From contig PHBO01000004.1 in NCBI GenBank assembly GCA_002840645.1, forward strand, positions 62,001-126,000: 64,000 nucleotides of DNA. The letters are read 5' to 3'. Source of the stretch: Candidatus Cloacimonetes bacterium HGW-Cloacimonetes-3. GTDB lineage: Bacteria; Cloacimonadota; Cloacimonadia; Cloacimonadales; Cloacimonadaceae. Made by a program: the position numbers and the translations under genes. Under the pieces are notes generated by a model that saw only the letters and a list, made by a program, of their open reading frames with translations, had not been told where the DNA came from and searched no databases. This document shows, piece by piece, positions 9,001-45,390 of this stretch (positions are counted from its first letter, which is position 1; the number at the start of each line of letters is the position of its first letter).

Positions 9001-9060
9001 CATTACGCATGAATTACGCATCCCATCCGTATTTCATGCGTAATGCATAAGTAATTCAAT
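9001..9060. repeat. palindromic repeat family A, copy 1
   Basis: A hairpin element between the convergent yraN and GWxTD genes. ATTACGCATGAA pairs with TTCATGCGTAAT (12 bp) and, after one mismatch, TACG pairs with CGTA, leaving a loop of about 9 bases. The tail continues GCATAAGTAATTCAA. The same core recurs at 31161-31220 and 45341-45390. Confidence 0.8.
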
Positions 9061-30943: not shown

Positions 30944-31263
30944 AACAGAGTAGGTAGATAACAAACAAGCAATTTCGTGGATTCTCAAGCATAAATTAGC
31001 TTTACTCAAGTATCCAGCCGGCTGAAGCCAGCGTTCCGGTCTATGTGCAATGGTCTTTAGGGGGGGTGCTATAAACGTGTATAAAGAGACACATGAGTTG
31101 TTTACTATGGTGAACTACTCAGCTATCAGAAAGAACCTTGCCTGATAAAACTAACTTAGAAATACGCATGAATTACGGATCGCATCCGTATTTCATGCGT
31201 AATGCATAAGTAATTGAAGCAAGTGCATTGCCGGGGAAAAGTTGTCCGGAAGGCAGCAGCTAA
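30944..31263. other. non-coding convergent junction with REP-like hairpins
   Basis: Bases 30944-31263 lie between the convergent FkbM and fcl genes and hold no convincing gene. They contain a short GC-rich palindrome (CCGGCTGAAGCCAGCG near 31018-31033), of the kind often found as a scattered repeat. Family A repeat copy 2 is at 31161-31220. A run of seven G lies near 31062. Confidence 0.6.
31161..31220. repeat. palindromic repeat family A, copy 2
   Basis: TACGCATGAA pairs with TTCATGCGTA, and inside it TACGGAT pairs with ATCCGTA around a CGC loop, so the inner stem is better than in copy 1. The tail GCATAAGTAATTGAAGCAAG resembles the other copies. It lies between convergent operons. Confidence 0.8.
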
Positions 31264-41545: not shown

Positions 41546-41551
41546 TTGACA
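41546..41551 (+). promoter_or_regulatory. TTGACA -35-like box before butyrate kinase
   Basis: TTGACA lies 58 bases before the buk ATG. At 17 bases the -10 is GAGCCT, so the match is poor. The rest of the 41316-41608 gap holds no gene of note. Confidence 0.35.
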
Positions 41552-41608
41552 GTTTTAAGCGGTTTAAAGAGCCTGCAAGAAAATAAATACTACCCTTCTG
41601 GAGGAGAA

Positions 41609-42688
41609 ATGACTTATCGTGTGCTCGCGATAAACCCCGGTTCCACATCTACCAAAATCGCTGTTTTCGATGACAATACACCCCTATTCGAGAAAACCCT
41701 GCGCCACGATCCTGCTGAATTAGACAAGTTCGGTGGCATTATTGAACAGTATGACTTCCGTAAAAACTTGGTGATGGAAGCTATGGCGGAGAATAACGTC
41801 TCGCCCGAAAGCCTGCATGCCGTGGTAGGCAGAGGCGGTTTGGTGCGTCCCGTAAGTGGAGGAACCTGGAAGATATGCGAAACCATGCTGAATGACCTTA
41901 AAGACCCCACCAGATGGGGACGGATTCATGCTTCCAATCTTGGTGCTTTCATAGCCAAAGCAATCGCCGATCCGCTGAATATTCCTTCTTTTATAGTTGA
42001 TCCGGTGGTGGTGGACGAGTTTGATGATATTGCCCGCATCTCTGGCATCCCGGAGATTGAGCGTAAAAGCCTGCTGCATGCCCTGAACATACGCTACATC
42101 GGGCGTTTGCTGGCTGCGGAGCTTGGCAAGGACTACAGTGAAGCCAACCTGATCGGCGTGCATATGGGTGGAGGTATCTCCGTGGCTGCCATCAAAAACG
42201 GCAGAGTTGTGGACGTGAACAATGCGCTTCTGGGTATGGGACCATTCTCTCCGCAAAGAGCCGGTGCCTTGCCGATAGGAGACCTGATTGATATGGCATA
42301 TTCAGGTAAATATACCAAGAAAGAGCTGAGTAACTACCTCTCCAAAGCAGGCGGGATGATGGCTTATCTGGGCACAGACAGCGGTATCGAGGTGGAAAAG
42401 CGCATCAATGCCGGAGATGAATATGCCAAAAAGATACACAACGCCATGTGCTATCAGGTAGCCAAGGAGATAGGTGCGTGCGCCACAGTGCTTGGAGGCA
42501 AGGTGGATGCCATATACATGAGCGGTGGCTTGGTGTTTAATGCGAGTGTGGTGGATTTTATTCGCGATAGAGTCGGATTCATTGCTCCGCTTTACATTTA
42601 TCCCGGTGAGAAAGAAATGGAAGCACTGTCTCAGGGCGGTGTTCGCGTATTAAGCGGACTTGAGCCGGCACTGGAATACCCTTATTGA
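41609..42688 (+). CDS. buk: butyrate kinase
   Basis: A 359-residue acetokinase-family enzyme that interconverts butyryl phosphate and butyrate with ADP/ATP. The N-terminal VLAINPGSTSTKIAVFDD is the phosphate-binding strand pair. VGRGGLVRPVSGGTW and GVHMGGGISVAAIKNGRVVD are hallmark blocks, and AEKxxx-like KEIGACATVLGGKVDAIYMSGG follows. The length fits butyrate or branched-chain-acid kinase. I chose the ATG at 41609, preceded by GGAGGAG; the frame is open to 41546. No phosphotransbutyrylase gene lies next to it. The stop overlaps the next start as TTGA. Confidence 0.94.
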   Translation: MTYRVLAINPGSTSTKIAVFDDNTPLFEKTLRHDPAELDKFGGIIEQYDFRKNLVMEAMAENNVSPESLHAVVGRGGLVRPVSGGTWKICETMLNDLKDPTRWGRIHASNLGAFIAKAIADPLNIPSFIVDPVVVDEFDDIARISGIPEIERKSLLHALNIRYIGRLLAAELGKDYSEANLIGVHMGGGISVAAIKNGRVVDVNNALLGMGPFSPQRAGALPIGDLIDMAYSGKYTKKELSNYLSKAGGMMAYLGTDSGIEVEKRINAGDEYAKKIHNAMCYQVAKEIGACATVLGGKVDAIYMSGGLVFNASVVDFIRDRVGFIAPLYIYPGEKEMEALSQGGVRVLSGLEPALEYPY

Positions 42689-44370
42689 AAAATAGCCTTT
42701 GGCTACTCATATTAATAGTATTAGCGCTGGGGAAACTCAGCGCTGAAACTTGGACTGTGCTTGTTTACATGGCTGCGGATAATAACCTGTCGCAGCAAGG
42801 TATCTTAGATATAAACAGCATGGAAATACCAGTCCAGCCTGAAGGCTTGAACCTGATTGTGCAAGCTGATTTCCCCGGAGGAGCAAAGCGATACAGAATA
42901 CAGCAGGATAGCTCGCCTACCGTTACTTCGCCTGTTATAGGCAATATGGGGGAGATAGACAGCGGAGACTATAATACCCTGAACAGCTTTATCAACTGGG
43001 GCTTTGGTGCTTATCCCGGGGATAGGAAGATGCTGGTGATCTGGTCGCATGGGAATAGCTGGTATAAAGGCAATGACACCAAGTGGATCTGCCCGGATGA
43101 CGGCAGCGAGAACCTGATAAGCGTATATAACGGCGAACTTGCTATGGCTTTGGCAAACATACCACATCTGGATATTCTGCTGTTCGATGCATGCAGCATG
43201 CAAAGCATTGAAGTGCTTACCGAAGTGTATCAGACGGCGGATTATGTGATTGGCTCGGCTGATCTGGTGCCGGTTAACGGCTTCCCATACGAGACTATCA
43301 TCCCCTTGTTTAGCAGCGATATAGATATTATTGTTAACCAAATCCCCTTACTGTATGTGGAATCCTATCTACCTTGGGGAGATATAAACACCGGGGGACA
43401 GTATTGGACAACCACTTGCTCTACGATTGCCACTGCTGCTATAAGCGCGTTTGTTAATGAATTCAGAGCTTTTACCTCCATATACTTAACTTACGGAGGG
43501 AATTTGCTTAGTATCCGCCAGCAATGCTACAGCATGAATGATGGCATGGCAGACGTAGACATGAGGGATTTCCTTACCAGGGCTTCAGGAGCAGAATCTG
43601 GAGGAATAAGGACAAAGGCTGCAGAACTGAGGGTAATGTGGGACAACATGGTTGTTAGCAGCACTTACACAACACCCCAGCCGCAAACAAACATCGGCAC
43701 CGGCGCATTGTGGTTCCCGGATTTCAGGCTGAATTTTACCTGGGGATGGGAGCGTTACAGCCACTTGAAATTTGCTAGGACACAATGGCTTAGTGTAGTG
43801 AATCATGCCTTGGGAGACGATATTCCGCCTGATGCACCAATCTTGTTAAGTAAAAGCGTGGTGAACAACACCCTGATTTTGCATGTTCAAGCCCCCTCAG
43901 ATCCTGATTCGCTGCATTACCGTTTGTTGGTTATTGAGGGCACGCACACATATGGCTATAGTTTATATCCAAGTTACACTGATGGGACATTCATAGCTAC
44001 TGCTCCCATAACCATGTTTGGAAGCTATAAGGTGTTTGCCGTGGATCAAAGTTGGAACCGCAGCGCGGCTCTGGAAGGGGATTACAGCTTCTCGTCCGTA
44101 ACCGTTAGTCCCAACCCAATCCGCAATAAGAATCTTGCCACTCTGCACTGGCTTGCTGGAGAGGATGTTAGCGGTGCTTTATCCTTGGACATATTCAATC
44201 TGCGCGGGCAGAAAGTTCTATCCCGAGAGCTGGGAACTGTTAGCTTTGGTGCGGGCAGCTACCCTCTTTTTGCCGATGCAGAATTTAAGAACTTTCCGGC
44301 GGGCAGATACTTTATCCGGCTTTCGATGGGGACTAAACAATTTGCGCAAAAACTCATTATCTTATACTAA
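42685..44370 (+). CDS. clostripain-like (C11) cysteine peptidase with sorting-type C-terminus
   Basis: A 561-residue exported protein that starts at a TTG overlapping the buk stop (TTGA). The signal peptide is MKNSLWLLILIVLALGKLSA. The C11 domain has TVLVYMAADNNLS, the catalytic His in VIWSHGNSW (H122) and the catalytic Cys in LLFDACSMQS (C170), with GSADLVPVNGFPY following. The tail (about residues 475-561) reads VSPNP... LDIFNLRGQKVLSREL, then FPAGRYFIRLS. This is the Por/T9SS-like secretion domain or a FlgD-like fold. It is probably a secreted protease that cleaves after Arg or Lys. It is translationally coupled to buk, without an obvious metabolic link. Confidence 0.9.
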   Translation: MKNSLWLLILIVLALGKLSAETWTVLVYMAADNNLSQQGILDINSMEIPVQPEGLNLIVQADFPGGAKRYRIQQDSSPTVTSPVIGNMGEIDSGDYNTLNSFINWGFGAYPGDRKMLVIWSHGNSWYKGNDTKWICPDDGSENLISVYNGELAMALANIPHLDILLFDACSMQSIEVLTEVYQTADYVIGSADLVPVNGFPYETIIPLFSSDIDIIVNQIPLLYVESYLPWGDINTGGQYWTTTCSTIATAAISAFVNEFRAFTSIYLTYGGNLLSIRQQCYSMNDGMADVDMRDFLTRASGAESGGIRTKAAELRVMWDNMVVSSTYTTPQPQTNIGTGALWFPDFRLNFTWGWERYSHLKFARTQWLSVVNHALGDDIPPDAPILLSKSVVNNTLILHVQAPSDPDSLHYRLLVIEGTHTYGYSLYPSYTDGTFIATAPITMFGSYKVFAVDQSWNRSAALEGDYSFSSVTVSPNPIRNKNLATLHWLAGEDVSGALSLDIFNLRGQKVLSRELGTVSFGAGSYPLFADAEFKNFPAGRYFIRLSMGTKQFAQKLIILY

Positions 44371-44389: not shown

Positions 44390-44496
44390 TGTGGATAACT
44401 TGTGGATAACTTTTGTGGATATCGCTCCACAAACACTAAGTACTTGCAATATGGACAAGTTAGAAATCAGGCTTTATCCACAGTAGATGTGGATAA
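44390..44496. promoter_or_regulatory. cluster of five DnaA boxes (candidate oriC or DnaA-titration/regulatory site)
   Basis: In a 173-base gap there are four perfect DnaA boxes and one near-perfect one. TGTGGATAA occurs at 44390-44398, 44401-44409 and 44488-44496. TTATCCACA, the reverse orientation, is at 44474-44482. TGTGGATAT at 44414-44422 has one change. The last two perfect boxes form an inverted pair with a 5-base spacer. Such density is far above chance. It could be the origin of replication, a DnaA-titrating site, or DnaA control of the SpoU gene. dnaA itself is not in the window. Confidence 0.8.
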
Positions 44497-44518
44497 GTGT
44501 GTAGATAGCTGATATAAT
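44488..44518 (+). promoter_or_regulatory. promoter of the SpoU methyltransferase gene, overlapped by a DnaA box
   Basis: TATAAT at 44513-44518 is a perfect -10, 25 bases before the ATG at 44544. The -35 position at 17 bases (44490-44495) lies inside the last DnaA box (TGTGGATAA), so DnaA binding would compete with polymerase. Confidence 0.6.
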
Positions 44519-44543: not shown

Positions 44544-45269
44544 ATGCCGAACTTAAGCCTTAGCATCGCCAGAATACATAGTCTTGCTAAACTTAAACAG
44601 AAGAAATTTAGAAATTTGGAACAAAAAGTTGTGGTGGAAGGGCGACGCACATTGCAACAGCTTGCCGACTGGGGGATTGTGCCGGAAGAATTGTACCTTG
44701 CCCAGGGAGAGCCAGCGCTGCCTGCTAAAGCGATTTACGATGTAACACCGGAGATAATGAACCGCATCTGTGATAGTGAATCACCTCCCGCAATCGCAGG
44801 CTTGTACCCTTTGCCCGAAGAGCGAAGCGTAAGCTTCCGTTCTGCTTTCTATCTGGATGGGATCAGTGATCCCGGTAATATGGGGACAATCTTCCGCATT
44901 GCGGCTGCATTTGGGGTGGATAGTGTGCTGCTTAGCACGGGCTGCTGCGAGCTTGGCTCTCCCAAAGTGATCCGTGCTTCTTTGGGTGCGGTTTACAAAG
45001 TACCTTTCCGGGTGTGTACTCCTTCTGAGCTTAAAGCCCTGGGAGCAACTGTAATCACTCTGGATATGGCGGGAAGCTTCGCTTTGCAGGATTATAAAGT
45101 GCCCCCATCTGCCTACATAATGGCACTTGGGGGAGAGGCGCATGGCTTGTCCTCCGCGATTAAAACCATGGCGGATGTGAGTTTGCGCATTGATATGCCG
45201 GGAGAAATGGAATCCCTGAATGCTGCCGTGTGTGCGGGGATTTGCGCTTTTCAGCTTTGCAGGAAATGA
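44544..45269 (+). CDS. TrmH/SpoU-family RNA 2'-O-methyltransferase
   Basis: A 241-residue SpoU-class (SPOUT) methyltransferase that probably methylates a ribose of rRNA or tRNA. The N-terminal substrate-binding part (residues 1-85) has EGRRTLQQLADW, as in RlmB-like proteins. Motif 1 is SDPGNMGTIFRIAAAFG (the N..GTIFR Arg). Motif 2 is GGEAHGLS and motif 3 is IDMPGEMESLNAAVCAGI, which form the knotted SAM site. The gene starts after a strong -10 and a DnaA-box cluster, with GAGAGGGGG upstream of the ATG. Downstream is a repeat-rich gap. Confidence 0.9.
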   Translation: MPNLSLSIARIHSLAKLKQKKFRNLEQKVVVEGRRTLQQLADWGIVPEELYLAQGEPALPAKAIYDVTPEIMNRICDSESPPAIAGLYPLPEERSVSFRSAFYLDGISDPGNMGTIFRIAAAFGVDSVLLSTGCCELGSPKVIRASLGAVYKVPFRVCTPSELKALGATVITLDMAGSFALQDYKVPPSAYIMALGGEAHGLSSAIKTMADVSLRIDMPGEMESLNAAVCAGICAFQLCRK

Positions 45270-45319: not shown

Positions 45320-45390
45320 ATTGCCCTATCATTCCCCACCCATTACGCATCGCATCCGTATTTCATGCGTAATGCATAAGCAATTCAAGC
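45320..45390. repeat. palindromic repeat family A, copy 3, joined to repeat C copy 2
   Basis: Bases 45341-45390 carry the right half of family A (GCATCGCATCCGTATTTCAT, then GCGTAATGCATAAGCAATTC). The left arm is shortened and replaced by 45320-45346, which matches the reverse complement of 20607-20633 at 25 of 27 bases. The whole can fold as a large hairpin from GCATGAATTGC to GCAATTCAAGC. It is thus a mosaic of two elements. Confidence 0.75.

Follow-up and report, generated by a model that had tools for sequence, protein, structure and literature searches.

To our knowledge, detailed accounts of chromosomal loci that convert DnaA between an ATP-bound and an ADP-bound form come only from Escherichia coli and its close relatives. 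A literature search on replication control in Cloacimonadota, which was of partial coverage, returned nothing relevant. PMC10380432 and PMC4245941 describe what defines datA and DARS. In datA, DnaA boxes are placed around an IHF site and the spacing is important, and DARS is characterized by a head-to-head pair of boxes, which is functionally essential (PMC10380432). The DARS2 core is limited to related gamma-proteobacteria (PMC4245941). The published positions of DARS1 and DARS2 are 17.5 and 64 min (PMC5295017), and the E. coli loci that were read from MG1655 agree with them: DARS1, at 17.52 min, is TTATCCACT-5-TGTGGATAA-3-TGTGTATTA, and DARS2, at 63.97 min, has the same spacers. Bacillus subtilis is described, in the accessible part of PMC13220808, as being without IHF, datA and DARS. 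It carries six DnaA-box clusters, and a phenotype in initiation appeared once all of them were removed (PMC13220808 and PMC5295017, accessible parts).

Layout of the DnaA boxes

The window, i.e., the whole stretch of DNA that was analysed, was 64,000 nucleotides long and corresponded to positions 62001-126000 of contig 30 of a Cloacimonadota genome (G000; 2.68 Mb, 32 contigs). An array of four exact DnaA boxes and one box with a single mismatch was found within 107 bp. The elements of the array are as follows, with the positions numbered along the window.

44390-44398, minus strand: DnaA box 1, TTATCCACA, exact; opens a tandem pair in 11-bp register
44401-44409, minus strand: DnaA box 2, TTATCCACA, exact; second of the tandem pair
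44414-44422, minus strand: weak extra tandem box, ATATCCACA, one mismatch
44437-44462, two half sites about a dyad: putative IHF-type bend motif, roughly symmetric
44437-44449, minus strand: left half of the bend motif, TTGCAAGTACTTA, 7/9 consensus positions
44450-44462, plus strand: right half of the bend motif, TATGGACAAGTTA, 7/9 consensus positions
44474-44482, plus strand: DnaA box 3 ('box I'), one partner of the head-to-head pair; TTATCCACA, exact
44488-44496, minus strand: DnaA box 4, 'box II', TTATCCACA, exact; 5-bp spacer to box I
44500-44508, minus strand: weak 'box III', TGTAGATAG on the plus strand; 3 bp past box II

The density of the boxes was compared with that of 150 windows simulated under a first-order Markov model. 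The simulated windows contained at most one exact box and at most three boxes with one mismatch or fewer per 110 bp, versus four and five in the array. The four exact and one near-exact boxes that the original prediction had placed in about 110 bases were thus located and exceeded the simulation, and the inverted pair that it described was present as boxes 3 and 4 (44474 on the plus strand and 44488 on the minus strand). Exact boxes occurred 82 times in G000, compared with 22 occurrences of the reversed pattern. Dense groups of boxes occurred three times in this genome, namely the array and two groups that flanked dnaA.

The head-to-head core in the window was TTATCCACA-5-TGTGGATAA-3-TGTAGATAG; its 5-bp and 3-bp spacers were the same as those of MG1655 DARS1 and DARS2, with a weak box III. 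The window copy of box III had two mismatches, and the consensus in the window's family was YGTAGATAA. The IHF site of DARS2 had a putative counterpart by sequence, and an IHF-like protein was encoded in the genome. As in datA, boxes flanked an IHF-type site at fixed spacing, and the distances differed from those of E. coli datA.

Conservation in the window's family

A sequence profile search detected the array in 35 of the 37 genomes of the window's family, and the clusters that flank dnaA were among the matches ranking just below the arrays. The relatives were mostly draft metagenome assemblies, and the assemblies G002 and G006 contained neither the array nor the SpoU locus. The boxes were positioned at 0, +11, +84 (inverted) and +98, with a variation of about 1 bp across the family. 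The mean pairwise identity among 30 relatives was 0.95 for box 1, 0.99 for box 2, 0.89 for box 3 and 0.97 for box 4, whereas most of the gap between the boxes had values of 0.33-0.39; the value for box III was 0.59. The boxes were kept and their spacing was fixed while the gap diverged, indicating strong conservation of length with free sequence. Moreover, the SpoU homologues in the family were 43-55% identical to that of the window, yet the boxes recurred upstream of them. One of the observations that, according to the original prediction, would speak against it was that close relatives had lost the boxes; the boxes were retained instead.

The spacer between boxes I and II was 5 bp in about two-thirds of the arrays of the family, 6 bp in most of the others and 3 bp in one. 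The weak tandem box was kept only partly in the family, and a similar weak box was present at +22 in other families. In G016 (L021:2264-2391), the array was rebuilt: its six exact boxes all had the same orientation, and the inverted pair was absent.

The IHF-type bend motif

A motif was derived de novo from the gap of 33 non-redundant arrays of the window's family. Gap columns 44-46 were CAR (C 24/33, A 30/33, R 28/33), and columns 51-53 were TTR (T 25/33, T 32/33, R 33/33). These columns matched the core that is conserved in the IHF consensus WATCARNNNNTTR, and the left side had the mirror half TAA....TG. The agreement of the half sites with the consensus reached 8-9 of 9 positions in relatives, compared with 7/9 in the window. 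Sixteen arrays of other families showed conservation at the equivalent columns, -35/-34 and -28 to -26 relative to the last box. When all registers were compared, the one starting at -38 from the last box ranked first in the window's family and in this independent 16-genome set, and the mirror at -50/-51 was among the next-best registers in both sets. In the sister family f13, it was the mirror half that scored best, weakly, and not the -38 register. In the first IHF test, the best match anywhere in the gap was compared with shuffles, and the difference was modest (7.5 vs 6.7); we take the register-based comparison as the decisive test for the putative site.

Two HU/IHF-family proteins were encoded in G000, one HU-like and the other IHF-like. 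The HU-like protein scored best as HU-beta. The IHF-like protein scored 96.9 bits as IHF-beta, 86.3 as IHF-alpha and 56 as HU, all of which were below the curated cut-offs. An IHF-type protein with one kind of subunit would be homodimeric, which would suit a symmetric site.

The array might act as a passive titration site for DnaA, as proposed for the B. subtilis clusters. This explanation is in line with the presence of high-affinity boxes away from the origin and has the B. subtilis deletion phenotype as a precedent. However, titration requires no fixed spacing, bend motif or head-to-head pair, and all three were conserved; hence, passive titration is considered unlikely. The datA-like titration site of the original prediction pointed in the right direction, and what was found is more specific, with an IHF-type bend motif and DARS-type geometry.

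Neighbouring genes and the promoter-like site

The genes adjacent to the array and the promoter-like site in the window are as follows.

41546-42688, plus strand: acetate/butyrate kinase-family gene; part of the synteny block upstream of the array
42685-44370, plus strand: C11 (clostripain-family) peptidase; usual upstream neighbour across the phylum, weak C-terminal sorting-domain match
44490-44518, plus strand: promoter-like site TGGATA-17-TATAAT, sigma70-like; TG before the -10, overlaps box 4
44544-45269, plus strand: SpoU/TrmH-type RNA 2'-O-methyltransferase, SpoU_methylase and MRM3-like substrate-binding domains; neighbour, outside the element

The array followed the kinase and C11 genes throughout the order and in family f13, and in two genomes without C11 it was located directly after the kinase gene. 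In the order-level genomes, the gene after the array was nadC, hisS or another, with C11 still upstream. The spacing outside the window's family was 0, +11 and +96/97. In f13, the first box was 8-10 bp past the C11 stop codon in 12/12 full-length homologues, followed by boxes at +11 and +96/97. Because the genes on either side of the array changed, the element has no fixed link to SpoU, nor a strict one to C11. In three genomes (L174:4664-5020, L058:9676-9981 and L175:346-663), the array and SpoU were separated by an ORF of 101-118 aa, and no Pfam match was found for the L174 copy.

DnaA control of SpoU had been suggested as the purpose of the array, which would then be a DnaA-regulated promoter of the methyltransferase. 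The array was directly upstream of SpoU in most members of the window's family, and the overlap of the last box with the -35 of a promoter-like site was present in the window as described. The -10, which had been called strong, fared less well: the promoter match alone was not significant because shuffles gave 0.8 such sites per 400 bp, and TATAAT at the -10 column occurred in the window only among 30 relatives. Furthermore, one group had the extra ORF between the array and SpoU, other families had nadC or hisS downstream, and the SpoU homologues outside the window's family mostly had no boxes upstream. Neither a conserved -10 nor a constant downstream gene was found; the SpoU promoter was rejected and is a very unlikely function of the array.

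A further reading, in which the inverted pair acts as an RNA hairpin that terminates or attenuates transcription of the kinase/C11 operon, was also evaluated. The array was positioned past the C11 stop codon, and the inverted pair folded (z = -2.2). However, no T tract or terminator was found at the array, the array of most other families was present without the inverted pair, and the box sequences were conserved as DnaA boxes rather than as covarying stems. An RNA terminator was rejected, and its probability is regarded as slight in the extreme.

Relation to dnaA and the origin

The dnaA gene of G000 was located at about 77.2 kb of contig 4 (C4), which is another contig than that of the array. 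It encoded the single Bac_DnaA-domain protein of this genome, and hence no Hda-type paralogue was seen there. Boxes were found upstream of dnaA at C4:76853, 76864 and 76978 and downstream at C4:78516, 78619 and 78630. Both dnaA-flanking clusters (G000:C4:76853-78638) reused the tandem pair of the array in its 11-bp register. In G008, the one single-contig genome measured, dnaA started at base 1 and clusters of boxes were found at 1504-1626 and at 2246663-2246796; the array was located at 447171-447277, i.e., 447 kb or 0.199 of the genome from dnaA.

The GC skew of G008 was sampled from 20 stretches. The skew was mostly positive at 0-0.8 Mb and mostly negative at 0.9-2.1 Mb, and its sign was constant at 447 kb; some samples were off the trend, so the skew evidence is supportive and not decisive. 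In the window, no change in GC skew was found at 44.4 kb. The array had also been put forward as a candidate origin, and its dense boxes around an IHF-type site do resemble the oriC layout of PMC10380432. However, dnaA had its own box clusters on both sides, the array was not linked to dnaA, and the skew of G008 kept its sign at the array and switched elsewhere. The array was thus rejected as an origin, and there is hardly any likelihood that it is the chromosomal origin or a second one.

A dispersed repeat, TTCATGCGTAATGCATAAG, had three copies in the window (9033-9051, 31192-31210 and 45362-45380). Its 17-bp core had 46 copies in the genome with one mismatch or fewer, one of which was just upstream of dnaA (C4:76481).

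The head-to-head pair elsewhere in the phylum

Of the 125 genomes of the phylum, 54 contained the exact head-to-head pattern and none contained the reversed control; the pattern almost always occupied one place per genome. This place was the array in the window's family (in G008, the array only) and the inside of a lamin-tail-domain surface-protein gene in most other families. The matches of the other families were rejected as the same array on account of their location in a coding gene. Outside the window's family, the C11-linked array usually lacked the inverted box I, so that the DARS-like core is elsewhere or absent there. The pair in the coding gene was located at the protein motif NLSTxxVDN (for example, L206:1501-1523; L211-L240, order-level relatives) and, in several genomes, near a NAD(P)HX epimerase/dehydratase gene. 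A further box, often a tandem pair in 11-bp register, was found 312/323 bp downstream.

Because these matches were inside a coding gene, a codon test was carried out on homologues gathered by a protein search that was blind to the pattern. The box codons were nearly fixed (TTA 23/27, TCC 26/30, ACA 20/26, GTG 27/27, GAT 26/27 and AAC 23/25). The four 4- to 6-fold box codons had a top-codon share above that of 54 other such columns, with p = 0.0005 when the columns are treated as independent and relatedness is ignored. The fixed codons indicate that a constraint at the DNA level within the lamin-tail-domain protein gene is likely. The protein search yielded two homologues from the window's family, and the aligned one (G013) was without the motif. 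Together with the restriction of the pattern to the array in G008, this result indicates that the head-to-head pair changed its place between lineages.

Proposed function

Comparison at the sequence level established the box geometry, the register of the IHF-type motif, the DARS-type core in the window's family and the independence from the downstream gene. The array, a short non-coding element, is probably a self-contained control locus for DnaA and IHF, comparable to datA and DARS and located away from the origin. DnaA would bind to the tandem boxes on one side and to boxes I-III on the other, and an IHF-like protein would bend the DNA at the central dyad. The centre of the dyad was 45 bp from box 2 and about as far, 42 bp, from box II, and such a bend may thus bring the two DnaA groups together. 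Their contact would alter the nucleotide state of DnaA, which in turn would time initiation at the origin next to dnaA. In the window's family, the head-to-head I-5-II-3-III core would favour ADP release, as in DARS, and ATP hydrolysis, as in datA, would be almost as likely. In rough terms, a DARS-like function is the tentative choice for this family; a datA-like function and, to the same degree, passive titration or another role would be somewhat unlikely. The layout of the other families, with tandem boxes, a bend and one box, appears closer to datA.

We propose, with slightly less than even confidence, that Cloacimonadota possess a DnaA-IHF nucleotide-switch locus that is ancestral and extends across the order, probably across the phylum, and that the DARS-type core was merged into it in the window's family; elsewhere, the pair would form a second module in the lamin-tail-domain gene under synonymous-codon constraint. 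If this is true, control of the DARS/datA type exists, or arose independently, far outside the gamma-proteobacteria, with a homodimeric IHF. The same geometry and a fixed IHF-type site in a distant phylum would mean that this control is much older or that the geometry was reinvented. Either outcome makes the rule of head-to-head boxes plus a bend directly testable with purified proteins.

Comparison with known systems

The array is similar to a bacterial oriC by dnaA in its consensus boxes and 11-bp tandem pair, which also flank dnaA in G000, but it is unlinked to dnaA and has no skew switch. It shares with the B. subtilis clusters the placement of DnaA boxes far from the origin, whereas a fixed bend-site geometry is not reported for those clusters in the accessible part of PMC13220808. 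The similarity to datA includes an IHF site flanked by boxes, the loop geometry and the intergenic location away from oriC (PMC10380432). However, the boxes of the MG1655 datA are at 2745 and 2907 of L180 and its IHF site is at 2810, whereas the array covers 98 bp overall, and datA has no DARS-type I-II-III core. The array is like DARS1 and DARS2 in that boxes I and II are head-to-head and 5 bp apart, a weaker box III follows after 3 bp, and the location is intergenic and off oriC. DARS2 is IHF-dependent (PMC4245941), and the array has an IHF-type motif; the candidate IHF sites of DARS2 are about 200 bp from box I, whereas the IHF-type site of the array is about 11 bp from it. Unlike DARS, the array has a tandem box pair beyond the IHF-type site and belongs to a phylum that is far from the gamma-proteobacteria.
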